From NCBI GenBank assembly GCA_016215645.1, contig JACRIX010000104.1, positions 1 to 64,000 of the forward strand: a DNA stretch of 64,000 nucleotides, written 5' to 3'. Positions 9,792 to 55,615 of this stretch are shown one piece after another. The number at the start of each line of letters is the position of its first letter. The stretch's first letter is position 1. The translations under genes were made by a program, and so were the position numbers. A model generated the notes under the pieces. That model was not told where the DNA came from. It did not search any database and was given only the letters and a program-made list of their open reading frames with translations. The stretch comes from Rhodocyclales bacterium. Lineage in GTDB: Bacteria > Pseudomonadota > Gammaproteobacteria > Burkholderiales > Rhodocyclaceae.

Positions 9792-12410
9792 TCAGGCCAG
9801 TTGGGCAAAGGCCTTGTTCTGGTCGCGGGCTTCCGCGCCAAAGCGCACCAGCAGCACTGCGCAGGCCAGGCCGCCGATGATGCGATCCGGTGCTCCGCCG
9901 GAACCATGTTTGCGCCCCAGCACCACGAGATCGGCGCCAAGTTCGGTGGCAAGCGCCGGGATCGCCAGCTCGGGCGAGCCTGCGACCACGCGGGTGTCGC
10001 AATCCACACCATCAACCCGCATGCGCCCGGCCTTGAGTGCCAGATCTTCGGTGGCCGACGAGGTGTCCTTTTCCCCGCCAATCACGGTCACGAGCGTGAC
10101 CGGCGCACGGGTGATGCGACCAATCAAGGCGGCGAGGTCGGCCACCTGGTCGCTTTGCTCCGAGCCGTCGCAGGCGACGAGGATGCGATGCGACCACATC
10201 CTGGCCTGCCAGCCGGCCACCAGCACATGGCAATGGGCACCGGCGATGATCTGCGCGGCGATGTCGCCCACCAGGCGTTCGCGCAGGTCGCCGCGTGGCG
10301 GACGCCGGCCGATGACGAGGATGTTGGTATCCATGGACCGCGCAGCGGCCAGGATTTCCTGCACCGCCTGGCGGCCCTGGCGCAGGATCGGCTCGGTATC
10401 CACACCGGCGGTCAGCGCTGCGCGGGTTGCCACCGCCAGCCTGGCGCGCGCCGATTCTTCATCGTCTACCGTTGGTACCGTCGTCATGACGTCGAGGGTG
10501 ACGCCGAAACTTTGCGCCAGCGCGATGGCGATTTCCTGCGGCGCCTGGCTGAATTCGCTGCCGTCGGTGGCCAGCATCAGGCGCTGGCGGCGGAAGCCGT
10601 CGGGCAGCAGTTTGCCGGTGCAGGGCTTGAAAATGCGTGTCTTGCAGCGGCGGCATACATCCGGATCAAGGGTCCAATAGAGCGCGGCCGTGACGTCGGT
10701 CATGACCGGAAAAAAGGCGCCCTCGCCGATTTCGTGCGTGTAGCCGCCCTGGCGCAGGAAGTGGTAATTGGGCTGGTTGAGCCGGTAGAAGTAAAGGCCG
10801 CCGCCGAGCCGCCGCCGCCGCCGTGCCTCCTGCGCCAGCACTTCGGCACCGGCGATGTCAATGGTATTGAGGCTGTTGGCGGCGATCAGCACCGATTTCT
10901 GCAGCGGGTTCTCTTCGTCGATCTGTTGCAACGCCGATTGCACATAGCTGGCGGCGCCGAAATACACCGAGCCGTTGATGCGCACGATGCGCAGTTGCGG
11001 GCACTCCGGCCGGCCTCTGGCGCGGGTGAAGTGATAGGCCCCGGCCTCGGCGGCCGGCACCAGGGGCACGATCTCCGGCTTGGAAGAGCGATACAGGTAC
11101 ATCACCAGCGACAGGAACACGCCGATGAAAATCCCGGCTTCGAGGTTGAACAGGGTGCCGACCAGGGTTGCAGCGAGGATCGCGGATTCCGCCTTGCTGC
11201 TATGCCAGATGTGCTTGATGTGATCGACGTCGATCAGGCCCCAGGCGACAAGGAACAGGATGCCGGCCATGGCGGCATCGGGCAGGTAGGCGGCGAGCGG
11301 CGCCACCAGCAGCAGCACCAGGATCAGGAAGAGCGTGGCGAACACCGAGGCCAGCGGCGTGCGTGCCCCGGCTTCGTAATTCACGCCGCTTCGGTTGAAC
11401 GAACCAGAGGAGGCGTAGGACGAAAAGAAGGCGCCAACGATGTTCGACAGGCCCTGGCCGATGAACTCCTGGTTGGCGTCGATGCGTTGCTCCGAACGCA
11501 CGGCGATCGCACGTGAGATCGAGACCGCCTCGGTCAGCGCCAGCATGGTGATCACCAGGGCCGGGCCCAGCGCATGCTGCAGTGTGCCGAGCGAGAAATC
11601 CGGCAGCGACAGCGGTGGCAGCGTTGCCGGCAGGGCGCCGACCGTGCGTATGCCGCTGGCCTCCTGGCCGATCCAGAGGACGATCGCCTCCGCGGCGAAG
11701 CTGCCGACGACCATGGCGGCGATCATGTAGGGCAGCTTCCTGAAATGGCGCCGGGTGAGAATGCCCGATGCCAGGGTGACCAGGCTGACCGCCAACACCC
11801 AGGGATTGATGTGGGAGAACTGGATCACCAACTGGCGCAGGATTTCATAGAAGGGCGTGCCGCGCGCGATCTCGATGCCGAAGAAGTTGCGCACCTGGCT
11901 GGCCGCGATCAGGATCGCGGCACCGGTGGTGAAGCCGATCACCACGGTATGCGAAATGAAATTCACCAGCGCACCCATGCGTGCCAGGCCCAGCACCAGT
12001 TGAAACACGCCGACCAGGAAGGTCATGGTCAGCACCAGGTTGATGTACTGCGCGGAACCCGGTTCGGCCTGATGCGAGAGTGCGGCAAACACCGCGATCG
12101 ATATGGCCGTGGTCGGGCCGGATACCAGGTGCCAGCTAGACCCGAAGAGCGCGGCGACCACGGCGGGAATCATCGCCGCGTAGAGGCCGTATTGCGGTGG
12201 CAGGCCGGCAATGGTGGCAAAGGCCACACCCTGCGGCAGTACGATCAGGGCACCGGTGAGCCCGGCGAGCAGGTCGTCGCGCAGGCTGTTGCGGTTGACC
12301 AGCGGCCACCAGAGCAGGAAGGGAAACAGTTTTGCCAAAAGGCCGACAGGCGGTTTCATCTGGGCAGGCGCCGGCATGGCGACACCCGGCTGCGGGGGAA
12401 GGGATGGCAT
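9792..12410 (-). CDS. SulP anion transporter fused to STAS and two universal-stress (USP) domains
   Basis: 872 residues, far longer than a plain SulP (about 550-600). Residues 1 to about 470 are a SulP permease (AGLTGALIVLPQGVAFATIA near the start, then GQGLSNIVGAFF and SGSFNRSGVNYEAGARTPL). A STAS domain follows (VYFGAASYVQSALQQ, NSLNTIDIAGAE) and then a CRRCKTRIFKPC cysteine motif at about 580. Two tandem USP domains end the protein (LMLATDGSEFSQ at about 608 and ILVACDGSEQSD at about 738), each with the ATP-binding type glycine region (VIGRRPPRGD, VLGRKHGSGG). The substrate could be sulfate, bicarbonate or another anion. It lies next to the two-component system and on the same strand. Confidence 0.9.
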   Translation of the reverse strand: MPSLPPQPGVAMPAPAQMKPPVGLLAKLFPFLLWWPLVNRNSLRDDLLAGLTGALIVLPQGVAFATIAGLPPQYGLYAAMIPAVVAALFGSSWHLVSGPTTAISIAVFAALSHQAEPGSAQYINLVLTMTFLVGVFQLVLGLARMGALVNFISHTVVIGFTTGAAILIAASQVRNFFGIEIARGTPFYEILRQLVIQFSHINPWVLAVSLVTLASGILTRRHFRKLPYMIAAMVVGSFAAEAIVLWIGQEASGIRTVGALPATLPPLSLPDFSLGTLQHALGPALVITMLALTEAVSISRAIAVRSEQRIDANQEFIGQGLSNIVGAFFSSYASSGSFNRSGVNYEAGARTPLASVFATLFLILVLLLVAPLAAYLPDAAMAGILFLVAWGLIDVDHIKHIWHSSKAESAILAATLVGTLFNLEAGIFIGVFLSLVMYLYRSSKPEIVPLVPAAEAGAYHFTRARGRPECPQLRIVRINGSVYFGAASYVQSALQQIDEENPLQKSVLIAANSLNTIDIAGAEVLAQEARRRRRLGGGLYFYRLNQPNYHFLRQGGYTHEIGEGAFFPVMTDVTAALYWTLDPDVCRRCKTRIFKPCTGKLLPDGFRRQRLMLATDGSEFSQAPQEIAIALAQSFGVTLDVMTTVPTVDDEESARARLAVATRAALTAGVDTEPILRQGRQAVQEILAAARSMDTNILVIGRRPPRGDLRERLVGDIAAQIIAGAHCHVLVAGWQARMWSHRILVACDGSEQSDQVADLAALIGRITRAPVTLVTVIGGEKDTSSATEDLALKAGRMRVDGVDCDTRVVAGSPELAIPALATELGADLVVLGRKHGSGGAPDRIIGGLACAVLLVRFGAEARDQNKAFAQLA

Positions 12411-12497: not shown

Positions 12498-13772
12498 TCA
12501 AGCGGCCCTGAAGCGGATGTCGATCCTGGTACCTGCGGGTGCGTCACTTTGCAGTGAAGCCGTCCAACCCAGCCGATCGCAAATGCGCTGGACAAGGAAC
12601 AAGCCAATGCCGGCGCCCTCGCTGTCGGTACCGCGGTAAAGGCGCTCGAAGACCCGCTGCTGCTCGGCTTCTTCGATCCCGCTACCGTTGTCGCGAACGG
12701 TAAGCGAGGTTGCCTCGAGCGTGATCGCGATGCGCCCGTTCAGGGTGTGGGCAATGGCGTTCCTTACCAGATTGGCAAGAACGATGGCGAATAGCGCCGG
12801 TGGAGCCGCGAGCGTCACCGGTGATGTCGCCGTCAGTGTCATGACGGTACCGCGCGCCGTCGCCTGGCCGCGATAGCGTTCGATGCATTGGCGGGCGATA
12901 TGCCGCGCATCGCAGGCTTCCCCGGCTGCCGGTTCGTCTTCGCGCGCCAGCAACAGCAGGGCCTCGACGAGCTGGGTCATCTCCTCGCTGGCGCGCTCGA
13001 TCCGAGCCAGGCGTTCGCGCAGTTCGGGATCGAGGCCGGGTTTGGCCGCGATCACGTCGACGGCACCGCGGATCACCGTCAGCGGGGTACGCAACTCGTG
13101 GCTGGCATCGGCGGCGAAGCTTCGCTCACGCTCGACAAACAGCCGCAGGCGCATCAGGTAGCGTTCGAAGGCCCGCGCCAGGTCATCGACTTCGTCGCCG
13201 GGGGTGCCGGCGGACGGGATGGACAACAATGGCGGCGGCTCGTCCGGGCGGGCATTGGTGACAGCGCGGGCGAGTTCGGTGACCGGGGCGATCACGCGTC
13301 CTGCCAGCCACCAGCCTCCGCTTGCAGCGAACAGGGTCATGGTCAGGGCACCGATCACCAGGTAGGCAAGGAAGCGTTGCTCGCGATGTTTCTGGCGGAC
13401 TTCGTCGAACAGGATCACATAGCGCCGGCCGTGCTCGTCGGCGACCGCGACACGGTAGGGAATGCCGTCCAGGTCGATCTCGTGCTGGCCGGGTGCGAGT
13501 TGCCGCAGCGGCGGCGGCAATTCGGTGATGGCCGCGTCGGTGGTCGTGTAGTAACCGCGCAGGCTGGCGGTCGCCGGCGGCAGGGATCCGGGATTGCGCG
13601 CATGTCGGGCCATGTAGTCCTCGAGTTCGGCGCGCAGCGTCTGGTCCATCAGCCGCTGCGAGACGTCGCGCGCCGCAAACCAGAGGCTTACGCTGAGCAG
13701 CATGCTCAGCGCCGCGCCCAGCGAGGCAAAGCCGATCGCGACACGCAGGCGCAGGCTACGCCGCGGTCCCAT
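12498..13772 (-). CDS. Sensor histidine kinase (EnvZ/QseC type)
   Basis: 424 residues. TM1 is at about 11-33, a periplasmic domain of about 100 residues follows, and TM2 is at about 135-157. Then come a HAMP linker, a HisKA domain with ADASHELRTPLTVIRG (phospho-acceptor His225) and a HATPase domain with NLVRNAIAH, DNGSGIE and GAGIGLFLV. The start at 13772 (MGPRRSLRLRVAIGF) overlaps the response-regulator gene by 17 bp and gives a sensible positively charged N-terminus before TM1. The signal is unknown; its position between two SulP genes suggests a link to anion or stress sensing. Confidence 0.92.
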   Translation of the reverse strand: MGPRRSLRLRVAIGFASLGAALSMLLSVSLWFAARDVSQRLMDQTLRAELEDYMARHARNPGSLPPATASLRGYYTTTDAAITELPPPLRQLAPGQHEIDLDGIPYRVAVADEHGRRYVILFDEVRQKHREQRFLAYLVIGALTMTLFAASGGWWLAGRVIAPVTELARAVTNARPDEPPPLLSIPSAGTPGDEVDDLARAFERYLMRLRLFVERERSFAADASHELRTPLTVIRGAVDVIAAKPGLDPELRERLARIERASEEMTQLVEALLLLAREDEPAAGEACDARHIARQCIERYRGQATARGTVMTLTATSPVTLAAPPALFAIVLANLVRNAIAHTLNGRIAITLEATSLTVRDNGSGIEEAEQQRVFERLYRGTDSEGAGIGLFLVQRICDRLGWTASLQSDAPAGTRIDIRFRAA

Positions 13773-14466
13773 CCGCCCCTTCCCCGGGCGGCGCAAGCCG
13801 CCAGCCAAGTCCGCGCGCGGTGTGCAGCATCGGCTGACCGAACGGCTTGTCGATGGTGGTGCGCAAGACGTGCAGGTGGCTGCGCAAGGCATCGGAGTCG
13901 GGCGGTGCATCGCCCCAGATGGTGCGCTCCAGCTCTTCGCGGGCCAGAACTCCTGGCGCGGCTCGCATCAGGGCTTCCAGCAGGCGTAGCGGAATTCGCG
14001 GCAGGGAAAGTTCCTGACCGCCGCGGCGCACGCTGAGGCTGCCGGTATCCAGCGTGAGGTCGCCGACACACAATACCGGTCCGATCATGCCCGGGCGGGA
14101 GCGTCGCGCCAGGGCCTGGATGCGGGCCGCCACCTCGCGCATGGCAAAGGGTTTGACCAGATAGTCGTCGGCGCCTGCCTCCAGCCCGGCGATCTTCTCG
14201 TCCAGGCTGGCGCGGGCCGTCAACATCAGGATTGGTGTTGCCTTGCCGTGTTGGCGCAGGCGACGGCAGATATCCATTCCCGAGAGATTCGGCAGCATCA
14301 GGTCGAGCAGTATCACGTCGAAATGCCCGCGCTCGGCAAGCCGCAGTCCGCTCAGGCCGTCGCCCGCGGCATCGACCAGGTGGCGCTGCGCCGCGAGGAA
14401 GTCGATCAGGTTGGCGGCGAGATCGGGGTTGTCCTCAACGACGAGGATTCGCAAAGGGGCATCCAT
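13756..14466 (-). CDS. OmpR/PhoB-family response regulator
   Basis: 236 residues. The receiver domain starts MDAPLRILVVEDNPDL with phosphorylation site Asp55 (VILLDLMLP) and the LVKPF lysine. A winged-helix output domain follows (LPRIPLRLLEALMRAAPGVL, LRSHLHVLRTTIDKPFG). The ATG at 14466 is preferred over an extension that would add 11 residues. It is cotranscribed with the kinase and divergent from the second SulP gene across 210 bp, so it may regulate that gene, the SulP-USP gene, or both (inferred). Confidence 0.93.
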   Translation of the reverse strand: MDAPLRILVVEDNPDLAANLIDFLAAQRHLVDAAGDGLSGLRLAERGHFDVILLDLMLPNLSGMDICRRLRQHGKATPILMLTARASLDEKIAGLEAGADDYLVKPFAMREVAARIQALARRSRPGMIGPVLCVGDLTLDTGSLSVRRGGQELSLPRIPLRLLEALMRAAPGVLAREELERTIWGDAPPDSDALRSHLHVLRTTIDKPFGQPMLHTARGLGWRLAPPGEGADGTAA

Positions 14467-14676
14467 GCGCCGATTATGGGGCCGCGAGACAGGCGTCAAT
14501 TTCGGTCCTGCGCGACGAGTTCATGTTGCAATGCAAGATACGTGGTCCTGATCGGACAATAAAAAGCTTGTGGGGTCACGTGAAATTGACCCTGTTAATA
14601 TCATGCGCTTCGTCAAGCGAGCGTGAAGAAATGGGGTAGACCACCGCCCCGGAGGCGCCCGCAAGAATCGCCCGAC

Positions 14677-16818
14677 ATGAGCCCGTCCCCGCTGCTGCAG
14701 CGCTTTCTGCCTTTCCTGCGTTGGTTTCCCTACAAGGGCGAAACGCTGCGCGCCGATTTTCTCGCCGGCCTGACCGTCGCCCTGGTGCTGGTGCCACAGT
14801 CCATGGCCTATGCGCAACTGGCGGGCATGCCGGCCTACTATGGGCTGTATGCCGCCTTCCTGCCGGTGGCGGTGGCGGCACTGTGGGGCTCGTCCAACCA
14901 GCTCGGCACCGGCCCGGTGGCCGTGGCTTCCCTGCTCACGGCATCGTCGCTGACGCCGCTGGCAGCGCCAGGTTCCGAGAGCTTCATCGCCCTGGCCATC
15001 CTGCTCGCCCTGCTGGTCGGGCTGATACAACTGACGCTGGGCGTATTCAAGCTCGGCGTGGTGGTGAACTTTCTCTCGCACCCGGTGATTGTCGGCTTTA
15101 CCAATGCCGCCGCCATCATCATCGCCTTGTCGCAAGTCAACAAGCTGCTGGGCGTGCCCATGGGGCGCTCGGAATCCTTCCTGGCCGACATCTGGGGTGT
15201 GGCAAATCTCTTTGGCGAAACCCACCTGCCGACCCTGGCGATGGGCCTGGCAGCGATCGCCCTGATCTGGGTGATTCGCAAGAAGGCGCCCAAGCTGCCT
15301 GGCGTGCTGATTGCCGTGGTGCTGACCACGGTGGTGTCCTGGCAGATCGGCTATGAACGCAATGCCACGGCAGCGCTTGCCCAAATTGCCGACGCCGAAG
15401 CGCAAAGCCTGCTCGGCGAGTTCATTCGCACCGAGGCGCGCATCCGCGAAATCAACGGCGAGATCATCGCCAGGAGCGGCGAAATGAAGGCGCTGCAAAA
15501 GCGCAGCGGTGAGCAGGCCCACGAAATCGCCACGCTGAACTACGAAGTCGAGTTGCTCAAGCTGCAGCTCAAGGACCGCGAGGACGAGAATCGCCGGCGC
15601 AATCGCGCCGTGCGCAGCATGGTGTTCGAGCAAGTGCCGGGGGCGGCAGGCGACGCGCCGAAATACGTTGCCGCCGGCCGCGTGCCGGCCGGGGTGCAGA
15701 CCGATGGCCGGCAATGGCACATCGCCCGCGCCGCCAGCGGCAGCCTGAAGCTTACCGGCGGCGGCGAAGTGGTCGGCAAGGTCCCCGAGGGTTTGCCGTC
15801 CATTGGCCTGCCAAAGTTTTCCTGGGATATGTTCGGCAGCCTGCTGGCGTCGGCCATCGTGATCTCGCTGGTCGGATTCATGGAGGCGATCTCGATTGCC
15901 AAGGCCATCGCCGCCAAGACCAAGCAGAAGATCGATCCCAACCAGGAACTGATCGGCCAGGGCCTTGGCAACCTGGTGGGCGCGGCAACCCAGTCTTTCC
16001 CGGTATCGGGTTCGTTCTCGCGCTCGGCGGTAAATATCAATGCCGGGGCCAGGACCGGCATGTCCTCGGTGATTACCGCGGCCTTTGTCCTGCTGACCCT
16101 GCTGTTCCTCACGCCCCTGCTTTACCACCTGCCGCAGGCCGTGTTGGCGGCAGTGATCATCATGGCCGTGATCGGCCTGGTGAATTTCGGTGCGATCAAA
16201 CACGCCTGGCAGGCCAATCGCCACGACGGCGTGGCGGCGGTGGTGACCTTCCTCGCCACCCTGGCGTTTGCGCCGCATCTTGACAAGGGCATCATCGTCG
16301 GCGCCGGGCTGGCCATCGGCCTGTATCTCTACCGCACCATGACCCCGCGCGTGGCGATCTTGGGGCGGCATCCGGATGGCACGCTGCGCGACGCGGCGGT
16401 GCATAAGCTGCCGCCCTCGAAAGTGGTCACCGCGGTGCGCTTCGACGGCCGGCTGTATTTCGCCAACGTCGCCTATTTCGAGGACGCCATCCTCGAAGCC
16501 GTCGCCGCCAATCCGGAGGCTCGGGCGCTGCTGGTGGTGGGGGAGGGCATCAACGAGATCGATGCCTCGGGCGAGGAGGTCATGCACCATGTGGTGCAGC
16601 ACCTGCGCGACGCCGGTGTCGAGGTGGCCTTCTCCGGGCTGAAGAAGCAGGTGGTCGACGTCATGCGCGCCACCGGCCTGCTCGGCTTCATTGGCGAGGG
16701 GCGGCTGTTTGCCACGGCGGACGCGGCGCTGGAAGCGATTCACGCCGAGGCGGCGGCGCGCGGCGAAGACCACGCGACGAGCCCGCTGCGTCCGGTACCG
16801 CAACAACGCTTTGCCTGA
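14677..16818 (+). CDS. SulP anion transporter with a coiled-coil/linker insertion
   Basis: 713 residues. SulP motifs: AGLTVALVLVPQSMAYAQLA (about 30-49), GTGPVAVASLLTA, FLSHPVIVGFTNAAA, GQGLGNLVGA, PVSGSFSRSAVN. A C-terminal STAS domain includes VRFDGRLYFANVAYFED and VVGEGINEIDASGEEV. Between two membrane segments, at residues about 227-368, there is a hydrophilic insertion. It starts with about 80 residues of heptad-like coiled coil (EARIREINGEIIARSGEMKA, YEVELLKLQLKDREDENRRR) and ends with a Gly-rich linker before VPEGLPSIGLPKF. The start at 14677 is chosen from the family N-terminus. Substrate unknown (sulfate or bicarbonate plausible). Confidence 0.9.
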   Translation: MSPSPLLQRFLPFLRWFPYKGETLRADFLAGLTVALVLVPQSMAYAQLAGMPAYYGLYAAFLPVAVAALWGSSNQLGTGPVAVASLLTASSLTPLAAPGSESFIALAILLALLVGLIQLTLGVFKLGVVVNFLSHPVIVGFTNAAAIIIALSQVNKLLGVPMGRSESFLADIWGVANLFGETHLPTLAMGLAAIALIWVIRKKAPKLPGVLIAVVLTTVVSWQIGYERNATAALAQIADAEAQSLLGEFIRTEARIREINGEIIARSGEMKALQKRSGEQAHEIATLNYEVELLKLQLKDREDENRRRNRAVRSMVFEQVPGAAGDAPKYVAAGRVPAGVQTDGRQWHIARAASGSLKLTGGGEVVGKVPEGLPSIGLPKFSWDMFGSLLASAIVISLVGFMEAISIAKAIAAKTKQKIDPNQELIGQGLGNLVGAATQSFPVSGSFSRSAVNINAGARTGMSSVITAAFVLLTLLFLTPLLYHLPQAVLAAVIIMAVIGLVNFGAIKHAWQANRHDGVAAVVTFLATLAFAPHLDKGIIVGAGLAIGLYLYRTMTPRVAILGRHPDGTLRDAAVHKLPPSKVVTAVRFDGRLYFANVAYFEDAILEAVAANPEARALLVVGEGINEIDASGEEVMHHVVQHLRDAGVEVAFSGLKKQVVDVMRATGLLGFIGEGRLFATADAALEAIHAEAAARGEDHATSPLRPVPQQRFA
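15355..15780 (+). other. Coiled-coil insertion inside the SulP permease domain
   Basis: This stretch codes for residues about 227-368, which break the SulP membrane domain between SWQIGYE and VVGKVPEGLP. In the neighbouring SulP-USP protein the same junction is only a short linker. The reading frame and GC character continue unbroken, so this is an in-frame domain insertion and not a frameshift. Confidence 0.8.
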
Positions 16819-16933: not shown

Positions 16934-18943
16934 ATGCCTGGCCTCCTGTCACTCGATCTGTTGCTGATCGCCGCTGCGGCATGGCTGGCGATCGGCCTGT
17001 GCGGGCTCCTGGCGGCGCGCCATCAGGCCCTGGTCAGCCAGGTGCTGTTCCCTGCCGGCGCGCTGGTCGGCCTGTGGGTGGGGGTGACAGGAATCGCGGC
17101 GCTGGGCGGCGATCCGCAAACCGCGGTGCTGGCAATCGGCCTTCCCGACCTGCCCTTTCATTTGCGCCTCGACAATCTCTCGGCGACCTTCGCGATCCTG
17201 CTGGGCCTGACCTCCGCCGGCATTTCGGTGTATTCCGCCGGCTACTTCGGCAAGGGCGATGTTGCCGGCCTGGGCACGCTCTGCCTCGAATACCACCTCT
17301 TTCTCGCCAGCATGCTGATGGTGCTGCTGGCCGATGATGCCTACGCCTTCATGGTGGCCTGGGAGTGCATGGCTTTGTCGTCGTTCTTTCTCGTCACCAC
17401 CGACCACAAGCACGAGGAAATCCGCAACGCCGGTTTTCTCTATCTGCTGATCGCCCATATCGGCGCCATCGGCATCCTGCTGTGCTTCGGCGTCATGACC
17501 GGCGGTGCCGGCGATTACAGCTTCGCCGCGATGCGCAGCCAGGAACTCGCGCCCTTCTGGACCTCGGCCGCCTTCCTGCTGGCGCTGGCCGGCTTCGGCG
17601 CCAAGGCCGGCCTGGTGCCCTTGCATGTCTGGCTGCCCGAGGCGCACCCGGCGGCGCCCTCGCCGGTGTCGGCGATGATGTCCGGCGTAATGCTGAAAAC
17701 GGCAATCTACGGCTTGCTCCGGGTCAGCTTCGATCTGCTGCACACGACGATCTGGTGGTGGGGTGTGGTCGCCCTCGTTGTCGGTCTCGTCACCGCCCTG
17801 TTCGGCGTGCTCTATGCCACGGTGCAAAACGACATGAAGCGCCTGCTGGCCTATTCCTCGATCGAGAACATCGGCCTGATCGCCGTGGCCATCGGCCTGA
17901 CCCTGATCTTCCACGCCTATGGCATGGATGCACTGGCGGCGCTGGCCATGACGGCCGTGCTCTACCACTGCCTGGCCCATGCCGGCTTCAAGAGCCTGTT
18001 GTTCCTGTGCACCGGTTCGGTGCTGCATGCCACCCAAGAGCGCAACCTCGGCAAGCTGGGCGGCCTGATCCATCCCATGCCCTGGGTGGCCTGGCTGGCC
18101 CTGGCCGGGATCATCGCCGGCGCCGGCCTGCCGCCGCTCTCCGGCTTCGTCTCCGAATGGCTGCTGCTGCAAGGCTTCCTCTTTTCGCCGGGACTCCCTC
18201 ATCCCTGGCTCAACATGGTGGTGCCGGTGGCCGCCGCCCTGGTGGTGCTGGTCGCGGCGCTGGCCGGCTTCGCCATGGTCAAGTTCTACGGCATCATCTT
18301 CCTCGGCCAGATGCGCGAGCCGGCGCTCAAGGATGCCCACGACGCCGGTCCATGGGAGCGGGTGGGGCTGGTCTGGCTTGCCCTGATCACGCTGTTCCTG
18401 GGCGTCATGCCCTCGACGGTGATCCTGCGCCTGGATGCTGCGACACGCCAGCTGCTCGGTGCCGGGCTGTCCGATACCCTGAAGGAGCAGGGCTGGTGGA
18501 TGCTGGCGCCGATCTCGGCCGAGCGCGCCAGCTACGAGCCCATGCTGGTGCTGGTGACCATCGCCGCGACACTGCTGTTGTCGCGCTGGCTGGTGCGCAG
18601 TCTTTACCACGGCCGGGTGCGGCGCAGTTCGCCCTGGGATTGCGGTTACCACTTCGAGGGGCCGCGCGCCCAGGACACGGCCGAGGGCTTCAGCCAGCCG
18701 ATCCGCCGCATCTTCGAGCCGGTATTCCGCATGCAGCGGCACTTCCCTGCCGCGCGCGACACGCAGCCCTTCTACAGCGTCAAGGTCGAGGATCATTTCT
18801 GGTACTGGTGCTATCTGCCGATCGCCCGGCTGGCCAACTGGATTTCTGCCCTGATCGTGACCTTGCAAGGTGGGCGCATCGCGATTTACCTCATGTACAG
18901 CTTCATCACCCTGCTGGTGTTGTTGATGGTGGCGAGGCCATGA
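16934..18943 (+). CDS. hyfB: HyfB-like antiporter-type subunit of an Ehr/hydrogenase-4-like complex
   Basis: 669 residues, multi-spanning, NuoL/MrpA-related. Antiporter-type motifs are AWECMALSSFFLVTTDHKHE (conserved Glu), GAKAGLVPLHVWLPEAHPAAP (conserved Lys), KRLLAYSSIENIG and HAGFKSLLFL. HyfB homologues form proton-pumping arms of membrane-bound hydrogenases. The C-terminal extension (SPWDCGYHFEGPRAQDTAEG) is usual for HyfB. It is the first gene of six; the 115-bp gap before it has an AT-rich TAAAAT (16849-16854) that may be a -10 box. The stop codon lies inside the first hairpin of the array that follows. Confidence 0.9.
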   Translation: MPGLLSLDLLLIAAAAWLAIGLCGLLAARHQALVSQVLFPAGALVGLWVGVTGIAALGGDPQTAVLAIGLPDLPFHLRLDNLSATFAILLGLTSAGISVYSAGYFGKGDVAGLGTLCLEYHLFLASMLMVLLADDAYAFMVAWECMALSSFFLVTTDHKHEEIRNAGFLYLLIAHIGAIGILLCFGVMTGGAGDYSFAAMRSQELAPFWTSAAFLLALAGFGAKAGLVPLHVWLPEAHPAAPSPVSAMMSGVMLKTAIYGLLRVSFDLLHTTIWWWGVVALVVGLVTALFGVLYATVQNDMKRLLAYSSIENIGLIAVAIGLTLIFHAYGMDALAALAMTAVLYHCLAHAGFKSLLFLCTGSVLHATQERNLGKLGGLIHPMPWVAWLALAGIIAGAGLPPLSGFVSEWLLLQGFLFSPGLPHPWLNMVVPVAAALVVLVAALAGFAMVKFYGIIFLGQMREPALKDAHDAGPWERVGLVWLALITLFLGVMPSTVILRLDAATRQLLGAGLSDTLKEQGWWMLAPISAERASYEPMLVLVTIAATLLLSRWLVRSLYHGRVRRSSPWDCGYHFEGPRAQDTAEGFSQPIRRIFEPVFRMQRHFPAARDTQPFYSVKVEDHFWYWCYLPIARLANWISALIVTLQGGRIAIYLMYSFITLLVLLMVARP

Positions 18944-19130
18944 GCAAGGCACACCTTGCTCATGGCCTTGCCTTGCCGGCCCAATTGGGGGCACCCCCTC
19001 CCAACCGCCCACGGCAGGCTTTGCAAAGCCTGCCGGCTGCGGCGGCGCAGAGCAGTGCTCTGCGAAACCCCGCCTTCGCCCCCCGCCGAGCGGGGGAGGC
19101 GACCAGTGAGCCCTGCCAGTTTGGCAGGGC
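18940..19130. repeat. Array of five consecutive hairpins between hyfB and hyfC
   Basis: Five inverted repeats in 191 bp: (1) 10-bp arms at 18940-18949 and 18954-18963, spanning the hyfB stop; (2) a perfect 24-bp palindrome at 19012-19035; (3) 9-bp arms with a 1-nt loop at 19046-19064; (4) CCCCCGC/GCGGGGG at 19080-19096; (5) 9-bp arms at 19110-19118 and 19122-19130. No U-tract follows any of them, so they are not classical terminators. The region encodes no convincing protein. Every other junction in this operon is 4 bp or less. Confidence 0.8.
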
Positions 19131-19142
19131 AGGGTTGGGCAA

Positions 19143-20099
19143 ATGATCAGCATTTCCGGATTCCTCGGCCAGGCCTTCGCCATCCTCCTGGCGCTGTTCC
19201 TTGCGCCACTGCTTTCGGGCTGGGTGGGCCAGTGCCGCGCCTGGTTCCAGAGCCGCACGGCGCCGCCACTGCTGCTGCCGTATTACATGTTGCAGAAGCT
19301 GTTCAACAAGGATGTGGTGCTGGCACACAACGCGTCCTCGCTGTTCCGCGCCGCGCCCTTCGTCATCTTTGGCTGCATGGTGTTGGCCTGCGCCATCGTG
19401 CCGACCCTGTCCACCGACCTGCCCTTCGCGCCGGCGGCCGATGCCCTGGCCCTGGTCGGCGTCTTTGGCCTGGCGCGCATTTTCATCGCCCTGGCGGGCA
19501 TGGACATCGGCACCGCCTTCGGCAGCCTCGGCGGGCGGCGCGAGATGCTGGTCGGCTTCCTCGCCGAGCCGGCCCTGCTGATGGTGTTTTTTACCCTGGC
19601 GATGATTGCCCAGTCGACCTCGCTGGCCACCATCGTCGAGACCCTGGCCCATCGCGAACTGGTGATCTACCCGAGCCTGGCGTTTGCCGGCGTCGCCTTC
19701 ACCTTCGTTTCGCTGGCCGAAAACGCCCGCGTGCCGGTGGATAACCCGGCGACGCACCTCGAACTGACCATGATCCACGAGGCCATGATCCTCGAATACA
19801 CCGGCCGCCACCTGGCGCTGATCGAGTGGGCCGCCAGCCTCAAGTTGTACGCCTATTCCTGTCTCGGGCTGGCGCTGTTCTTTCCCTGGGGCATTGCCCC
19901 GGGCGATGACATCGTCGCCCTGATTGCGGCGATTCCGCTGCTGGTGTTCAAGCTCGCCATCGGCGGTTTCCTGCTTGCCGCGATTGAGACCGTCAACGCC
20001 AAGATGCGCATCTTCCGCGCCCCCGAGTTCCTCGGTACGGCCTTCATGCTGGCGGTGCTCGGCCTGCTGGTGCGCCTGCTGCTGGAGGTACGGACGTGA
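19143..20099 (+). CDS. hyfC: HyfC-like (NuoH-type) membrane subunit
   Basis: 318 residues with about eight hydrophobic segments. Signatures of the NuoH/HyfC/HycD family: WFQSRTAPPLLLPYYMLQKL near residue 35, DIGTAFGSLGGRREM, FVSLAENARVPVDNPATHLE and LTMIHEAMILEYTGRHLAL. This subunit anchors the soluble HyfG-HyfI module to the membrane. The start follows the hairpin array by 12 bp. The stop overlaps the next start (GTGA). Confidence 0.92.
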   Translation: MISISGFLGQAFAILLALFLAPLLSGWVGQCRAWFQSRTAPPLLLPYYMLQKLFNKDVVLAHNASSLFRAAPFVIFGCMVLACAIVPTLSTDLPFAPAADALALVGVFGLARIFIALAGMDIGTAFGSLGGRREMLVGFLAEPALLMVFFTLAMIAQSTSLATIVETLAHRELVIYPSLAFAGVAFTFVSLAENARVPVDNPATHLELTMIHEAMILEYTGRHLALIEWAASLKLYAYSCLGLALFFPWGIAPGDDIVALIAAIPLLVFKLAIGGFLLAAIETVNAKMRIFRAPEFLGTAFMLAVLGLLVRLLLEVRT

Positions 20100-20764
20100 C
20101 CGCGTCCATACCCCTGTCCGCGCAGCTGATCAACCTGTTCGCTGCGGTGATCCTGCTGCTGGCCTTTGCCATGCTGGCGCAGCGGCGCATGCATTCGCTG
20201 GTCAATCTGTTCGCCCTGCAGGGCCTGGCCTTGTGCCTGGCGACGCTGGTGGCGGCGGTCTCCACCGGACAGGTGCATCTTTACTTCTCGGCGGGACTGA
20301 CCCTGCTGCTCAAGGTGCTGGCGCTGCCCTGGATCCTTTACCGCCTGGTACGCCAACTCAACATCAAGGGCGACGTCGAAGCGCTGATCAACATTCCCAC
20401 CATCATGCTGGTCGGCATCGGGCTGGTGATGGTGGCCTTCAACGTCGCGCTGCCGATTTCGGAGCTTTCCCACACCATCACCCGTGGCACCCTGGGCATT
20501 GCCCTGGCCGTGGTCATGCTGGCCTTCCTGATGATGATCACGCGACAGAAGGCGATCAGCCAGGTGGTCGGTTTCCTTTCGATGGAAAACGGCTTGTTCC
20601 TCGCCGCTACCAGTGCCACCTACGGCATGCCCATGGTGGTCGAGCTCGGCATCGCGCTCGACGTGCTGGTCGGCATGATCATCCTCGGCGTGTTTTTCTT
20701 CCAGATCCGCGACCAGTTCGACAGCCTGGACATTCGCCACATGGAAAAACTGAAAGATAGCTGA
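20096..20764 (+). CDS. hyfE: HyfE-like membrane subunit
   Basis: 222 residues, multi-spanning, related to HyfE and the NuoK/MrpC-type subunit. It contains SLVNLFALQGLALCLATLVA and the C-terminal FLSMENGLFLAATSATYGMP with a membrane glutamate, typical of HyfE. The GTG at 20096 overlaps the hyfC stop. It probably contributes to the proton path beside the antiporter-type subunits. Confidence 0.9.
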   Translation: MTASIPLSAQLINLFAAVILLLAFAMLAQRRMHSLVNLFALQGLALCLATLVAAVSTGQVHLYFSAGLTLLLKVLALPWILYRLVRQLNIKGDVEALINIPTIMLVGIGLVMVAFNVALPISELSHTITRGTLGIALAVVMLAFLMMITRQKAISQVVGFLSMENGLFLAATSATYGMPMVVELGIALDVLVGMIILGVFFFQIRDQFDSLDIRHMEKLKDS

Positions 20765-20768
20765 GGTC

Positions 20769-22220
20769 ATGGATTTCTTCATCCTCATGCTTTCCATTCC
20801 CCTCGTCAGCGGCGCGCTGCTGACGATCGTGGGCGAACGCGACTGGGCGCCCAACCTCAATGTCATCGCCAGCCTCGGCACCTTCCTTGCGGCCGTCGGC
20901 CTCACCGGCGAGATCGTCGCCAACGGGCCGCGCTTTGCCGTCGGCGAGCAGTTTTTCATTGATTCGCTGAACGTCTTCTTCGTTGCGCTGACGGCCTTTG
21001 TCGGTTTGACCACCAGCATTTTCTCCGGTCCCTACATGAGGATCGAGCGCGATCGCGGGCGTCTGACCAAACCGCGCCTGCGCCTCTACAAGAGCATGTA
21101 CCAGCTCTTCATGTTCACCATGCTGGCGGCGCTGACCACCAACAACCTCGGCATCCTCTGGGTGGCGATGGAGGCGGCGACGCTGACCACGGTGCTGCTG
21201 GTTTCGCTCTACCGCAGCCCGGCCAGCCTCGAAGCGGCGTGGAAGTACTTCATCCTGTGCGGCGTCGGCATCGCCCAGGCGCTGTTCGGCACCGTGCTGC
21301 TCTACTTCGCCGCCGAGCGTGTGCTGGGCGCGGCGGGCAATGCGCTGCTGTGGACCCACCTGGTCGATGTCAAGAGCCAGCTTGAACCGACCATCATGGC
21401 GCTGTCCTTCATTTTCCTGCTGGTCGGCTACGGCACCAAGGTGGGTCTGGCGCCATTGCACAACTGGCTGCCCGACGCCCACGCCGAGGGCCCGACGCCG
21501 GTGTCGGCGGTACTTTCCGGCCTGCTGCTGAACGTCGCCCTGTACGCCATCCTGCGCTGCAAGGTGCTGGCCGACGGTGCCTTGCCCGAGGGCTATGCCG
21601 GCAATTTGATGATCGGCTTCGGCCTGTTCACCCTGCTGCTCGCGGCCTTCTTCCTGTCGCGGCAGAAGGACGTCAAGCGCATGTTCGCCTACTCGTCGAT
21701 CGAGCACATGGGCCTGATCACCTTTGCCTTCGGCATGGGCGGGCCGATCGCCAACTTCGCCGGCCTGCTGCACATGACCATGCATTCGCTGACCAAGTCG
21801 GCGATCTTCTTTGCCGTCGGCCATGCCACGCAGAAGACCGAAACCCAACTCATGGAACACATCCGCGGCCTGATGAAGATCAACCCGCTGATCGGCTGGG
21901 GCCTGATGCTGGGCACCCTGGCGATACTCGGCATGCCGCCCTTCGGTGTCTTCGCCAGCGAGTTCATGATCCTGACCCACGCCATGAAGCATTTCCCCTG
22001 GACCACGCCCATCCTGCTGCTGGCGCTGGGCGTCGCCTTCGCCTCGATCTTCAGCAAGGTGCAACCCATGGTCTTCGGTGAGACCGAGGCGAAGCGCCTG
22101 CCGCATGCGCCGGCGATCACGCCGGTGTTCCTGCATCTGGGCATCGTGCTGATGCTGGGCCTCTACATTCCGCCTTACCTGACGCGCTGGTTCCACGAAG
22201 CCGCGCGCATGCTCGGCTAG
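20769..22220 (+). CDS. hyfF: HyfF-like antiporter-type subunit
   Basis: 483 residues, NuoN/NuoM/MrpD-like. Motifs are LGILWVAMEAATLTTVLLVS (conserved Glu), YGTKVGLAPLHNWLPDAHAE (conserved Lys), KRMFAYSSIEHMGLITFAFG and HSLTKSAIFFAVGHA. This is the second antiporter-like subunit of the complex. No HyfD-type third one is present in the window. It starts 4 bp after hyfE. Confidence 0.92.
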   Translation: MDFFILMLSIPLVSGALLTIVGERDWAPNLNVIASLGTFLAAVGLTGEIVANGPRFAVGEQFFIDSLNVFFVALTAFVGLTTSIFSGPYMRIERDRGRLTKPRLRLYKSMYQLFMFTMLAALTTNNLGILWVAMEAATLTTVLLVSLYRSPASLEAAWKYFILCGVGIAQALFGTVLLYFAAERVLGAAGNALLWTHLVDVKSQLEPTIMALSFIFLLVGYGTKVGLAPLHNWLPDAHAEGPTPVSAVLSGLLLNVALYAILRCKVLADGALPEGYAGNLMIGFGLFTLLLAAFFLSRQKDVKRMFAYSSIEHMGLITFAFGMGGPIANFAGLLHMTMHSLTKSAIFFAVGHATQKTETQLMEHIRGLMKINPLIGWGLMLGTLAILGMPPFGVFASEFMILTHAMKHFPWTTPILLLALGVAFASIFSKVQPMVFGETEAKRLPHAPAITPVFLHLGIVLMLGLYIPPYLTRWFHEAARMLG

Positions 22221-22222
22221 CC

Positions 22223-23785
22223 ATGCAGATCTGTTCCTTCCCCGCCATCGACTTCAGCCGCCAGCCGGGAATCGGCGCGCCGGTGTGGCGCGGTCGTGCC
22301 GCCAGCGGTGCCGAGCTGCACGATTTCGCTGGGGCGGCGAGAGAAGTCGGCGCCCGCATCACGGCGATCTGGGGCAGCGACCGTCGCGGGCAGGGGCAGG
22401 GATTCCGCCTGCATTGCGTGTTCGGCATCGAAGCCGGCCATGCCTGGGTCAGCCTCGACTTGCCGGCCGCGGCGCCGAGCTATCCGGATCTCGCGAATGT
22501 GTTCGCCGCCGCCAATCGCATGCAGCGCGCCACGCGCGACATGGTCGGCATCGGCATTGACGGCGGCGACCAGCGACCCTGGCTGCGCCACGGCGGCTGG
22601 CCGGCGGACTGGTTCCCGCTGCGCCACGATGCCGGTGAGCCGCCAGAATTCGCGAACCTGCCGACCGACTACGATTTCGTCAAGGTGGGCGGCGAAGGCG
22701 CGCACGAAATCCCGGTCGGCCCCATCCATGCCGGGATCATCGAGCCGGGCCACTTCCGCTTTTCGGTGGTCGGCGAACGCGTGCTGCGCCTCGAACAACG
22801 TCTGGGTTACCAGCACAAAGGCGTGGAAAGGCTGTTCATCGGCGCCGACATCGCGCAGGGTGCGAAGCTGGTCGGCCGTGTCTCCGGCGATTCCGCCTGC
22901 GCCTTTGCCTGGGCCTATGCCGATGCCGTCGAAGCCGCCTGCGCAACCGCCGCACCGCCGCGGGCACTGGCCTTGCGCGCGCTGATGCTGGAGCGCGAGC
23001 GAGTCGCCAACCACCTTGGCGACCTTGGCGCGCTGGGCAACGACGCCGCCTTCGCCTTCGGCCTGACGCACTACCTGCGCCTCAAGGAAGACTGGGTGCG
23101 GCTCAACGCCAGGCTATTTGGCCATCGCTTCCTGTTCGACCGCATCGTTCCCGGCGGCGTCGCCTGCGACATCGATGCGGCGGGTCTGGCCGCCATCGTC
23201 GAGCAATGCGGCGCCATCGAGACTGCGGTGAAGGCGCTGCGCGAACTGTACGACGAGCACTCCGGCCTGCAGGACCGCTTCGTCACCACCGGCATCATCG
23301 ACAGCGACCTGGCGCGCGAGCTGTCGCTTTCCGGCATGGCGGCGCGCGCCACCGGCATGCTGCTCGACGGCCGCGCCCATCGCCAGGGCTATACGCCGCC
23401 GCCGCCCTACACCGGGCTCGGCGTGCGTCCCGCCACCGACGAGCGCGGCGACGTCGCCGCCCGTGTTGCGGTGCGCTTCGACGAGATTTTTGAATCCCTG
23501 CGCCTGCTGCGCCTGCTGGCGGTGGGCATGCCCGGTGGCGCCACGTGCATCGATGTCGCCCCGGTCGCCGGTGGCTCTGGCCTCGGTGTCGTCGAAGGCT
23601 GGCGCGGCGAAGTCGCGGTGGGTGTCGAACTCGACGGCGCGGGCCGCCTGGCGCGGGTGCATCCGCATGATCCCTCCTGGCAGGCCTGGCTGGCGCTGGA
23701 GTTCGCCGTGCTGCGCGACATCGTTCCCGATTTCCCGTTGATCAACAAGTCCTTCAATCTCTCGTATTCGGGGGTGGATCTGTGA
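22223..23785 (+). CDS. hyfG: HyfG-like large subunit lacking all four Ni-Fe ligand cysteines (Ehr type)
   Basis: 520 residues. Residues 1 to about 150 are a NuoC-like domain and the rest is the NuoD/hydrogenase large-subunit fold (VGPIHAGIIEPGHFRFSVVG, RLEQRLGYQHKGVERLF). In true [NiFe] enzymes the first ligand pair is R-x-C-G-x-C; here it reads RVSGDSAC (219-226), with Ser221 and Ser224 in place of the cysteines. The C-terminal DPC-x2-C is replaced by KSFNLSYSG (509-517). It therefore cannot build a Ni-Fe centre and should belong to an energy-converting hydrogenase-related (Ehr) complex that couples another redox reaction to ion transport. It starts 2 bp after hyfF. Confidence 0.9.
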   Translation: MQICSFPAIDFSRQPGIGAPVWRGRAASGAELHDFAGAAREVGARITAIWGSDRRGQGQGFRLHCVFGIEAGHAWVSLDLPAAAPSYPDLANVFAAANRMQRATRDMVGIGIDGGDQRPWLRHGGWPADWFPLRHDAGEPPEFANLPTDYDFVKVGGEGAHEIPVGPIHAGIIEPGHFRFSVVGERVLRLEQRLGYQHKGVERLFIGADIAQGAKLVGRVSGDSACAFAWAYADAVEAACATAAPPRALALRALMLERERVANHLGDLGALGNDAAFAFGLTHYLRLKEDWVRLNARLFGHRFLFDRIVPGGVACDIDAAGLAAIVEQCGAIETAVKALRELYDEHSGLQDRFVTTGIIDSDLARELSLSGMAARATGMLLDGRAHRQGYTPPPPYTGLGVRPATDERGDVAARVAVRFDEIFESLRLLRLLAVGMPGGATCIDVAPVAGGSGLGVVEGWRGEVAVGVELDGAGRLARVHPHDPSWQAWLALEFAVLRDIVPDFPLINKSFNLSYSGVDL

Positions 23786-24294
23786 TTCCGCTCATCCGCC
23801 ACATCTTCCGCACCGGCATCCTCACCGAGCCGCAGGCGCCTGCCACGGACGGACCGCAGCGCGAGGTCGAACGCCTGCACGACGAACTGCTCGGCATCCT
23901 CGGTCGCGCCCTGACCATCCGCGAAGTCGATGCCGGCTCGTGCAACGCCTGCGAGCTGGAAGTGCATGCGATGAACAACCCCTATTACAACCTCGAAGGC
24001 AAGGGGATCAAGTTCGTCGCCAGTCCGCGCCATGCCGACATGCTGCTGGTCAGCGGCCCGGTGACCAAGAACATGGAAAACGCCCTGCGGCGCGCCTGGG
24101 AATGCACGCCCGATCCCAAGCTGGTGGTGGCGATCGGCGACTGCGGCTGCGATGCCGGCGTGTTCGGCAAGAGCTACGCCAGCTGTGGTGGCGTAAGCGA
24201 CGTGGTGCCGGTCGATGTGCGGGTGCCGGGCTGCCCGCCGACGCCGCTGGCGATGATGCAGGGCATCCTCGCGGCGGTGCGCAAGGCGAGGTAG
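23782..24294 (+). CDS. hyfI: HyfI-like (NuoB-type) [4Fe-4S] subunit
   Basis: 170 residues. The four cluster ligands expected for the proximal [4Fe-4S] centre are present: SCNACE (Cys54, Cys57), GDCGCD (Cys121) and PGCPPTP (Cys151). Thus the electron-entry cluster is intact while the catalytic partner HyfG has lost its metal site. The GTG at 23782 overlaps the hyfG stop (GTGA). It ends the cluster; HyfA, HyfH, HyfD and maturation genes are not nearby. The next gene, lldD, is convergent after 37 bp. Confidence 0.92.
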   Translation: MIPLIRHIFRTGILTEPQAPATDGPQREVERLHDELLGILGRALTIREVDAGSCNACELEVHAMNNPYYNLEGKGIKFVASPRHADMLLVSGPVTKNMENALRRAWECTPDPKLVVAIGDCGCDAGVFGKSYASCGGVSDVVPVDVRVPGCPPTPLAMMQGILAAVRKAR

Positions 24295-24331: not shown

Positions 24332-25501
24332 TCAGCCCGGCAGGGCGCCGCGGTCGAGCGAGCGTACGTCGGTAACGCCGGTCAGCGCCAGCGCGACGTC
24401 CATTTCCTTCTTCATCGTCGCCAGTACATGGGCAACACCGGCTTCGCCGCGTGCGGCGACGGCATAGCCCCAGGCGCGGCCGATCATGCAGGCGCGGGCA
24501 CCCAATGCCAGTGCCTTGACCACGTCGAGTCCGCTGCGCACCCCGCCGTCCATCAGCAGCTCGATCCGGTCGCCGACGGCATCGGCAATGCGTGGCAGGG
24601 CGGTGATGGCGGCCTCGACGCCGTCGAGCTGGCGCCCACCGTGGTTGGAAACGACGATGCCGTCGGCGCCGACGCTCGCGGCCTGGCGCGCATCCTCGAC
24701 GTCGAGCACGCCCTTGAGCACGATCTTGCCGGGCCAGTTCTCGCGCACCCAGGTGATGTCATTCCAGGTCACGGCCGGGTCGAACTGGCTGTCCACCCAG
24801 GCCTTGAACTCGGGCAGGCTGCGCGCATCCGGTACTGCACGGGTGAGGTTGCCGAAGGTCAGCGGCTTGCCGCGGATGCCGACATCGAGCAGCCAGCCGG
24901 GGTGGGAGAGGATGTCCCAGGCCTTGCACAGCTTGCCGCCCAGTGAAAGACCGCCGGCCATGCCGTTGCGGATGTCGCGGTAGCGCGCGCCCATCACGGC
25001 GAGGTCCACGGTCAGCACCAGCACCGGGCAGCCGGCGGCGTGGGCGCGCTGCATCAGCTCACGGGCGAAGCCGCGGTCGCGCATGACGTAAAGCTGGTAC
25101 CAGAAAGGAGAGGCAGTGGCGGCGCGGACTTCCTCGATCGAGCAGATCGACACCGTGGATTCGCAGAAGGGAATCCCGGCGGCTTCGGCGGCCCGCGCCG
25201 CCTGTACTTCGGCACGGCGGGCGAAGGCGCCGGCAATGCCGATCGGCGCCAGCACCACGGGCATGGCAAGTTCCTGGCCGAGCACGCGGGTCGACAGCTT
25301 GAGCGAGGAAACATCGCGCAGCACACGCTGGCGCAGCTTCAGGCGCTGGAAGCCGCGCAGGTTCTCGCCGGCCGTGACTTCGTCATAGGCGGCGCCATCC
25401 ATGTAGTCGAACAGGTGGCGCGGCAGGTGCCGGCGCGCCAGTTCCCGGTAATCGGCGGCTGTGGCGGGGGCGAGGCCCATTCCGCGGGTATCGGGGTTCA
25501 T
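24332..25501 (-). CDS. lldD: L-lactate dehydrogenase / FMN-dependent alpha-hydroxy acid dehydrogenase
   Basis: 389 residues. Family motifs: RHLFDYMDGAAYDEVT near residue 25, LAPIGIAG, YQLYVMRDRG, VLTVDLAVMGARYRDIRNG, the Lys of IVLKGVLDVEDA and the active-site SNHGGRQLDG, then DGGVRSGLDVVKALALGA. It oxidises L-lactate (or a related 2-hydroxy acid) to the 2-oxoacid and passes electrons to the quinone pool. The start at 25501 fits the family N-terminus. It lies directly behind the regulator gene (30-bp gap), so lactate use may be controlled by that two-component system. Mandelate or glycolate are alternative substrates. Confidence 0.88.
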   Translation of the reverse strand: MNPDTRGMGLAPATAADYRELARRHLPRHLFDYMDGAAYDEVTAGENLRGFQRLKLRQRVLRDVSSLKLSTRVLGQELAMPVVLAPIGIAGAFARRAEVQAARAAEAAGIPFCESTVSICSIEEVRAATASPFWYQLYVMRDRGFARELMQRAHAAGCPVLVLTVDLAVMGARYRDIRNGMAGGLSLGGKLCKAWDILSHPGWLLDVGIRGKPLTFGNLTRAVPDARSLPEFKAWVDSQFDPAVTWNDITWVRENWPGKIVLKGVLDVEDARQAASVGADGIVVSNHGGRQLDGVEAAITALPRIADAVGDRIELLMDGGVRSGLDVVKALALGARACMIGRAWGYAVAARGEAGVAHVLATMKKEMDVALALTGVTDVRSLDRGALPG

Positions 25502-25531
25502 CCGGACTCCTCCTTGGCGGTGGGCAAGCAC

Positions 25532-46822: not shown

Positions 46823-46837
46823 CAAACTTCCCCCCAG

Positions 46838-46922: not shown

Positions 46923-46940
46923 TGCGGAGACAATCCAGCC

Positions 46941-49504: not shown

Positions 49505-49506
49505 GC

Positions 49507-53871: not shown

Positions 53872-54001
53872 GATGGCGGGTGAAAGGCGGTATCATAACG
53901 CCGGTAGGGTCTTGGCGCCGGCGAGGTGCCGACAGGCCCGGACGGGGGCAGGCAGAACCGTCCTACCAACCAACTCGAAAGAAAAATGGAATGGGAGCAT
54001 C

Positions 54002-55600: not shown

Positions 55601-55615
55601 GCAGGAGACACCGAA

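Follow-up and report, generated by a model that had tools for sequence, protein, structure and literature searches.

A six-gene hyf-like operon and, directly upstream of it, a gene for a SulP-family anion transporter are located on the forward strand of a 64,000-nucleotide stretch of DNA from a Rhodocyclales bacterium (assembly GCA_016215645.1, contig JACRIX010000104.1, positions 1 to 64,000; the whole stretch is referred to here as the window). The operon (16934-24294, +) encodes, from 5' to 3', subunits B, C, E, F, G and I, as recognized from open reading frames (ORFs) and profile matches. The antiporter-type subunits HyfB (16934..18943, +) and HyfF (20769..22220, +) exceed the cut-offs of the hydrogenase-4 subunit B and subunit F profiles (NF005086, 882.6 bits, and NF005045, 858.7 bits, respectively), and HyfC (19143..20099, +) belongs to the NuoH family (PF00146, NADHdh). 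The membrane subunit HyfE (20096..20764, +) matches NF008556 (7e-25, 88.1 bits) below the cut-off of 136, and its gene holds the same position in relatives. HyfG (22223..23785, +) is a large subunit in which the 30 kDa and 49 kDa proteins are fused (PF00329 and PF00346), and HyfI (23782..24294, +) is a small subunit of the 20 kDa family (PF01058) with the [4Fe-4S] cysteines C54, C57, C121 and C151. The six ORFs, their order and their coordinates agree with an earlier note on this DNA and were confirmed by the ORF and Pfam/NCBIfam matches. That note missed the SulP gene (14623..16818, +), which encodes Sulfate_transp and STAS domains (PF00916, 5e-105; TIGR00815, 418 bits, over the cut-off), is co-directional with the operon and ends about 119 nt before the start of hyfB.

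None of the hyfA, hyfD, hyfH and hyfJ-type genes and no maturation gene, the maturation protease included, was found in the operon, as the earlier note had stated for HyfA, HyfD, HyfH and the maturation genes. Matches to [NiFe] large subunits and hypD are present on other contigs of the same genome. The NADH input module (NuoE, NuoF and NuoG) was not found among the window ORFs scanned (9 + 10 + 10). A diaphorase and a ferredoxin-like subunit are likewise absent from the operon, the HyfI cluster being the sole Fe-S site seen across the six genes.

The metal ligands of group 4 [NiFe] hydrogenases (Hyf and formate hydrogenlyase), carried in the motifs R-x-C-G-x-C and D-P-C-x2-C, are missing from HyfG. 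In the alignment with the large subunit of Escherichia coli formate hydrogenlyase (7z0s_E), RVCGIC stands over RVSGDS (residues 219-224; 22877..22894, +) and DPCYSC over NLSYSG, the latter within N-K-S-F-N-L-S-Y-S-G-V-D (residues 508-519; 23744..23779, +). The four ligand positions are thus occupied by S221, S224, S514 and G517, and the claim that all four cysteines had gone proved correct. The fold is retained in the structure model of HyfG (predicted local distance difference test, pLDDT, 87.2; predicted template modelling score, pTM, 0.91; residues 166-177 and 193-199 below pLDDT 50), for which 7z0s_E is the best match (template modelling score 0.91/0.89) and E. coli complex I the next. A second, ligand-bearing hyfG-like gene, which the earlier note had considered, was sought with PF00346 and not found in the genome (79.6% complete), the only two matches being NuoD on another contig and the hyfG of the window.

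Among the 153 rows of the large-subunit alignment, with E. coli NuoCD set aside, 140 (window included) lack the N-terminal CxxC pair, which is kept in 12 (L084-L092, E. coli HyfG, E. coli HycE and L108b). The C-terminal cysteine pair is found in none of the 140 ligand-less rows, nine of which have a lone cysteine (eight at position 221, one at 224). Residues I173, D223, D274 and F504 are invariant in all 140; G222 and N508 are present in 139, and K509, S510, Y515 and D519 occur in each of the 139 rows with a letter at those columns. E. coli HycE and HyfG likewise have G222, S510, Y515 and D519, but both differ from these rows at the columns of I173, D223, D274, F504, N508 and K509. Loci L081-L083 form a distant sub-branch on a long branch; L081 and L082 have one cysteine, at 221, and L082 and L083 the motif NKSFDLSYCG. 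Two ligand-less BCEFGI operons, adjacent or back to back, were observed in each of L065, L067 and L127, the second copy bearing the variant NKSVNGSYSG.

The remaining parts of the complex are well conserved. Of 143 HyfI rows, which include those of ligand-bearing loci, 142 have all four cluster cysteines, and the lone exception is a row ended by a contig edge. The glutamate of transmembrane helix (TM) 5, the lysine of TM7 and the glutamate of TM12 are invariant in both HyfB (115/115 rows) and HyfF (129/129). His205 and His212 of HyfC are likewise invariant (120/120), at positions occupied by E and Q in E. coli HyfC and HycD. The ratio of nonsynonymous to synonymous substitution rates (dN/dS) between the window and four relatives lies at 0.03-0.36 over seven genes, SulP included. 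Judged by sequence, the pump subunits, the NuoH-like coupling subunit and one [4Fe-4S] site are therefore intact and under purifying selection, and the earlier statements that HyfI keeps its cluster cysteines and that the membrane subunits are whole were borne out. The loss of the Ni-Fe ligands might be taken as the mark of a decayed complex or of a plain antiporter that has no redox function, but this is highly improbable given the invariance of D223 and D274, the lack of any full cysteine pair, the fixed Glu and Lys of the pump subunits, the low dN/dS, the conserved cluster cysteines and the occurrence in several phyla. The conservation of the HyfI cluster argues for electron transfer, and that of the altered pocket points to a second type of active site in the superfamily rather than a broken hydrogenase.

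The alignment and tree with hydrogenase-4 and complex I NuoD that the earlier note had proposed placed the ligand-less large subunits in one clade. In a tree of 91 large subunits (78 ligand-less rows thinned from 139, 11 CxxC rows and two NuoD), built by a quick method that gave a long-branch warning, the 78 lie on one side of a branch with SH-like approximate likelihood ratio test (SH-aLRT) support of 99, and in a more careful tree of 38 rows the 24 ligand-less rows form a single clade (100/98). Nitrospirota bins and Cupriavidus metallidurans CH34 (L181) fall within the ligand-less clade.

A ligand-bearing sister was found in L108, a betaproteobacterial bin, where a second, partial set of E, F, G and I begins at the locus start (G and I at L108:2250-4389) and immediately precedes the ligand-less operon. 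The large subunit of this set, L108b, has the motifs RICGVC and NKSFELCYSC, with all four cysteines present; it shares I173, P310, F504, N508 and K509 with the ligand-less clade, whereas residues 223 and 274 are V and G. L108b is sister to the 24 ligand-less rows in the 38-row tree (support 100/100). Although it is one sequence with a motif unique among 140 loci, L108b carries the NKS motif together with cysteines, which indicates that NKS predates ligand loss and that D223 and D274 came with the loss; this neighbour of a ligand-less operon thus appears to show a step on the way to ligand loss. That the clade might still hold a hydrogenase with unconventional ligands is barely credible. The closest fold is indeed that of a formate hydrogenlyase large subunit, the genome has hypD and other [NiFe] large-subunit matches, and the sister keeps all four cysteines, but the cysteines have become S, S, S and G in the window and the operon lacks a maturation protease gene.

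The pump is not peculiar to the genome of the window. Of the 297 genomes of the same family, 115 have a large-subunit match, 107 of them ligand-less and eight canonical or NuoD-like, a split made by identity with motifs read for the retrieved loci. A scan of named genomes, in which at least 579 relatives were seen, gave at least 80 loci spanning Rhodocyclaceae, Gallionellaceae, Thiobacillus, Rhodoferax, Paraburkholderia and Thiomonas, and the matches listed also come from Rhodanobacter, Nitrospirota, Methylococcales, Thiorhodococcus, Mariprofundus and Acidobacteriota. The two genome samples can overlap, as L098 is the same as G017 and L138 appears to be the same as G055. Plasmid copies of the operon were noted in Rhizobium, Azospirillum, Cupriavidus, Burkholderia and others.

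A SulP gene is the commonest recurrent neighbour of the ligand-less operon, as judged by clustering ORFs of composition-weighted choice up to 5 kb upstream and up to 4.5 kb downstream in 140 oriented loci. It lies directly upstream of and co-directional with hyfB in 24 of the 93 ligand-less loci that contain hyfB preceded by no less than 2.3 kb of sequence; these loci mix two sampling routes and include one identical pair (92 different rows). The count takes in L072, where the SulP frame is split, and L123, where a small ORF intervenes. Left out are L160, where one gene separates SulP from the operon, L128 and L045, whose SulP genes are on the other strand (downstream in L128), L047, with a SulP fragment at a gap of 2.5 kb, and L169, whose upstream sequence is too short. 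Under a stricter rule SulP was found at 22 of the 93 loci, followed by metG (nine) and a spermidine-synthase-like gene (five), the last two being judged housekeeping neighbours. None of the nine CxxC loci has SulP directly upstream, a number too small to weigh much.

Eight changes in SulP adjacency were reconstructed on the tree, at least five of them forced by well-supported branches. The linked SulP proteins fall into three groups with 20-37% identity between and 50-81% within groups. The first comprises the window type (65-81% within) and a second type 50-55% identical to it (L049, L160 and L128), the second L102 and L138 (61% mutual identity, 32-37% to the window group), which resemble the other SulP of the window, and the third is found in Methylococcales (58-73% identity among its members, 20-28% to the other groups). 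The existence of three distinct groups suggests that the adjacency arose more than once. Since genomes contain only 0-10 PF00916 matches among thousands of genes, several independent adjacencies would, by an informal estimate, not be expected by chance. This repeated gene linkage suggests that the complex works with SulP in this lineage, and no paper joining hyf and SulP was found in the searches made and passages seen, all within open-licence PubMed Central (PMC). The SulP linkage, the conserved altered pocket and the ligand-bearing sister are new.

Side features of the SulP genes were also observed. Residues ~232-382 of the hyf-linked SulP in the window form a stretch of 150 residues, as against 18-19 in L048, L049, L123, L128 and L160 (about 131 extra); the extra loop is rich in Glu, Arg and Leu and gives a coiled-coil-like impression, and seven other loci proved by measurement to have the long-loop form, the remaining ones not being measurable. 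A second SulP, fused to universal-stress domains, is encoded at 9792-12410 (-) of the window, and a sensor kinase (12498-13910, -) and an OmpR-type regulator (13756-14499, -) lie between it and the operon. SulP genes roughly 6-22 kb from hyfG occur in a number of relatives among the matches listed.

With its pump subunits and single cluster, the complex might also be viewed as a stripped-down complex I that passes electrons from a soluble carrier to membrane quinone and pumps protons, with the SulP adjacency incidental. HyfG matches NuoD in alignment as well as the folds of E. coli complex I, and D274 matches an Asp of complex I at a position taken by Phe in E. coli HycE and HyfG. The residues known to hold the quinone headgroup in complex I, Nqo4 Tyr87 and His38, are without counterpart, as Gly222 stands at the Tyr (E. 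coli NuoCD has Tyr opposite Gly222 in a wider alignment) and Ile173 at the His. This and the repeated SulP linkage make the explanation rather unlikely.

As to the electron donor, a POR_N/PFOR_II gene (2221-3663, -) and a thiamine pyrophosphate (TPP)-domain gene (1189-2205, -), both recognized by profile match about 13 kb from hyfB, resemble a two-subunit 2-oxoacid:ferredoxin oxidoreductase. Their orthologues in L078, of the same genus (84% and 92.5% identical), follow hyfI after about 0.7 kb in the same direction (L078:9481-13453), with an Fe-S flavoprotein gene behind them; the hyf operon there is of a different type. In L171, a Nitrospirota bin, POR_N and TPP genes (33% and 28%) lie downstream of hyfI in the same orientation, about 1.2 kb away and beyond one unassigned ORF (L171:13073-16026), with a POR-domain gene behind the pair. 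Such gene orders favour ferredoxin as the carrier. An enzyme of this kind, or a formate or carbon monoxide (CO) dehydrogenase, could be a dedicated donor that may dock on the complex, an idea also found in several papers, and the hyf genes of Nitrospira nitrosa adjoin a CO dehydrogenase (PMC5596200). However, hits to the two oxidoreductase genes were obtained in only two of 145 other records (L078 and L171), so their adjacency is no general rule, and the annotated plasmid copies have no such neighbour, the 4Fe-4S protein in Variovorax lying about 3.4 kb upstream. A dedicated donor is thus unlikely. Of the donors suggested in the earlier note, the 2-oxoacid oxidoreductase gains modest support from L078 and L171, weakened by its presence in two of 145 records, whereas the formate-type system gains none among the window ORFs scanned.

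The cargo of SulP may be approached through carbon fixation. Of the 107 ligand-less carriers, 78 have a strong RuBisCO match, compared with 59 of the 190 other genomes of the family (137 strong genomes in all, 16 weaker matches having been dropped); such a match is also present in 37 of the 42 genomes that carry the window-type gene. By genus, the figures are 27/35 and 12/33 (Fisher p 0.0012). RuBisCO matches are also present on other contigs of the window's own genome. For the named loci, 34 of 80 were tested and 23 genomes had a match, although four of these matches are weaker (E 1e-24 to 1e-68), perhaps to RuBisCO-like proteins; six genomes with SulP next to or near the operon (L097, L102, L123, L128, L138 and L160) all have a match. 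One hyf cluster of Acidithiobacillus caldus adjoins a beta-carbonic anhydrase gene, and another co-occurs with carbon-fixation genes (PMC3826726). Taken together, the RuBisCO co-occurrence and the genome context make bicarbonate the leading candidate for what SulP carries.

The linkage might instead concern sulfate, with the pump powering or balancing sulfate export or uptake in sulfur oxidisers or in assimilation. Eight of the 11 SulP proteins scanned pass the cut-off of a sulfate-permease subfamily, and SulP has been described as a proton/sulfate symporter (PMC2702500). In L128 (Gallionella), the SulP gene is flanked by the hyf operon on one side and by a molybdopterin oxidoreductase gene set on the other (L128:8728-15332; the large gene was scanned and the others guessed from sequence). 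This set may resemble a sulfite dehydrogenase. The co-occurrence with RuBisCO and the carbonic anhydrase neighbour in A. caldus speak against the sulfate explanation, which is judged unlikely.

The reading favoured here, tentatively, is that of a non-hydrogenase member of the complex I and group 4 hydrogenase superfamily, a redox-driven ion pump that works with SulP; the ion-pumping redox module proposed in the earlier note is thereby kept as the best reading. What is observed is the anatomy and the linkage, from which we infer the donor and acceptor of the electrons, the ion and the cargo. A soluble low-potential carrier, most likely ferredoxin, would deliver electrons to the HyfI cluster, and a small substrate or a quinone would be reduced at the altered HyfG pocket. 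The reaction would drive H+ (or Na+) out through HyfC, HyfF and HyfB, and SulP would use or balance the resulting gradient, so that transport of an inorganic anion, bicarbonate being the first candidate, would be energised or charge-balanced. A bolder form is a long shot: the ligand-less complex and SulP would together use redox power to take up an inorganic anion (bicarbonate) and would add a third class of energised inorganic-carbon pump to the cyanobacterial NDH-1MS and the DAB systems, with the former Ni-Fe pocket turned into a binding or proton-transfer site and various SulP proteins plugged in; if true, redox-powered bicarbonate uptake would run also in methanotrophs that have no RuBisCO.

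Several observations weigh against a redox pump tied to SulP and bicarbonate. SulP proteins also carry sulfate. The BicA cut-off is reached by none of the 11 SulP proteins scanned, the window protein scoring 145.5 bits against a required 880 (NCBIfam), while the sulfate-permease cut-off is reached by the eight noted above. SulP is not directly upstream in 69 of the 93 ligand-less loci, and no annotated SulP adjoins the plasmid copies of Rhizobium, Azospirillum, Burkholderia, Variovorax and Candidatus Methylocalor in a gene table that is incomplete; SulP therefore cannot be essential to the basic function. K509 and N508 predate ligand loss, being present in L108b, and so need not mark a new reaction. 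The association with RuBisCO is in part shared ancestry, which was only partly controlled, and RuBisCO was found in none of four SulP-linked Methylococcales (L158, L168, L170 and L172) and none of four Paraburkholderia/Burkholderia carriers; it was accordingly rejected as a general explanation. The one beta-carbonic anhydrase match of the window's genome lies on another contig, and a partnership with DabA was set aside, as PF10070 has no match in that genome at its 79.6% completeness.

Other features of the locus may be noted. The hyfB-hyfC spacer of about 200 nt (18944-19142) separates genes that abut in close relatives; it contains a palindrome-rich repeat of about 77 bp with eight more copies in the genome (E below 1e-10) and related copies within the hyf operons of L039, L058, L078 and L093. 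No promoter-like sites were found, and there were ten terminator-like sites against 6.5 expected; a hairpin 3' of hyfI (z -2.28) has no T run. A gene resembling flavin mononucleotide (FMN)-dependent L-lactate dehydrogenase (24332-25531, -) converges on hyfI, and six of 140 loci, the window counted, have such a gene no more than 4.5 kb downstream. Further away, glycerate kinase-type (MOFRL), flavin adenine dinucleotide (FAD)-linked oxidase and cysteine-rich Fe-S genes (45473-50748) resemble a glycolate oxidation cluster and are followed by transhydrogenase-like genes (53696-57028). In L168 and L169 a histidine kinase gene comes after the operon, with a sigma-54-type response regulator in L168, and a DUF2490 protein is encoded near the operon in L168 and L172.

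In the inorganic-carbon pumps NDH-1MS and DAB, antiporter-type subunits are tied to inorganic-carbon uptake. The likeness of the present complex to these pumps is one of analogy only, the DabA of DAB having no match in the window's genome. Hydrogenase-4 and formate hydrogenlyase of E. coli (Hyf and Hyc) have subunits homologous to those of the window, but they possess the CxxC ligands and the additional hyfA, hyfD, hyfH and hyfJ genes. Closer still are the hyfBCEFGI genes of C. metallidurans CH34 and C. necator H16, six genes in the order of the window, with a CH34 large subunit about 53% identical; the operon has been described as incomplete and as most unlikely to support growth by lithotrophy, and SulP is not mentioned in the portion available of that paper (PMC2864759). 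The hyfBCEFGI of Acidithiobacillus ferrooxidans, likened here by description only, also has the six genes of the window, and its catalytic subunit was classed as non-hydrogenase by HydDB (PMC7735108); sulP lies beside can2 in that species, with no mention of hyf in the available part of the report (PMC6458275). Six-gene hyf sets have also been reported in Nitrospira (PMC5596200) and in Desulfobacterium, where the set was taken as a [NiFe] hydrogenase (PMC2702500), a hyfBCEFG cluster in A. caldus (PMC3826726), and a hyf complex without HyfA elsewhere (PMC4136832).

The energy-converting hydrogenase-related (Ehr) complexes of comammox Nitrospira, Riflemargulisbacteria and Saganbacteria are related to group 4 hydrogenases and lack the metal ligands (PMC6349859, PMC10284858), and their Mrp-like subunits have been named (PMC6349859). 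The window complex shows the same features, namely a group 4-homologous large subunit without both CxxC pairs, together with retained cluster cysteines and Mrp-type subunits, and so the Ehr label given in the earlier note holds. The Ehr papers suggest formate dehydrogenase partners, whereas none was seen among the window ORFs scanned. Since six-gene hyf operons and ligand-less Ehr complexes have already been published, complexes of this kind are known; they are often annotated as hydrogenase-4 or formate hydrogenlyase, are without a known reaction and should not be called hydrogenases in genome papers when encoded by hyfBCEFGI. The repeated SulP linkage offers a lead on the physiological role of these complexes, which are widespread in proteobacteria and sit between the hydrogenases and respiratory complex I.

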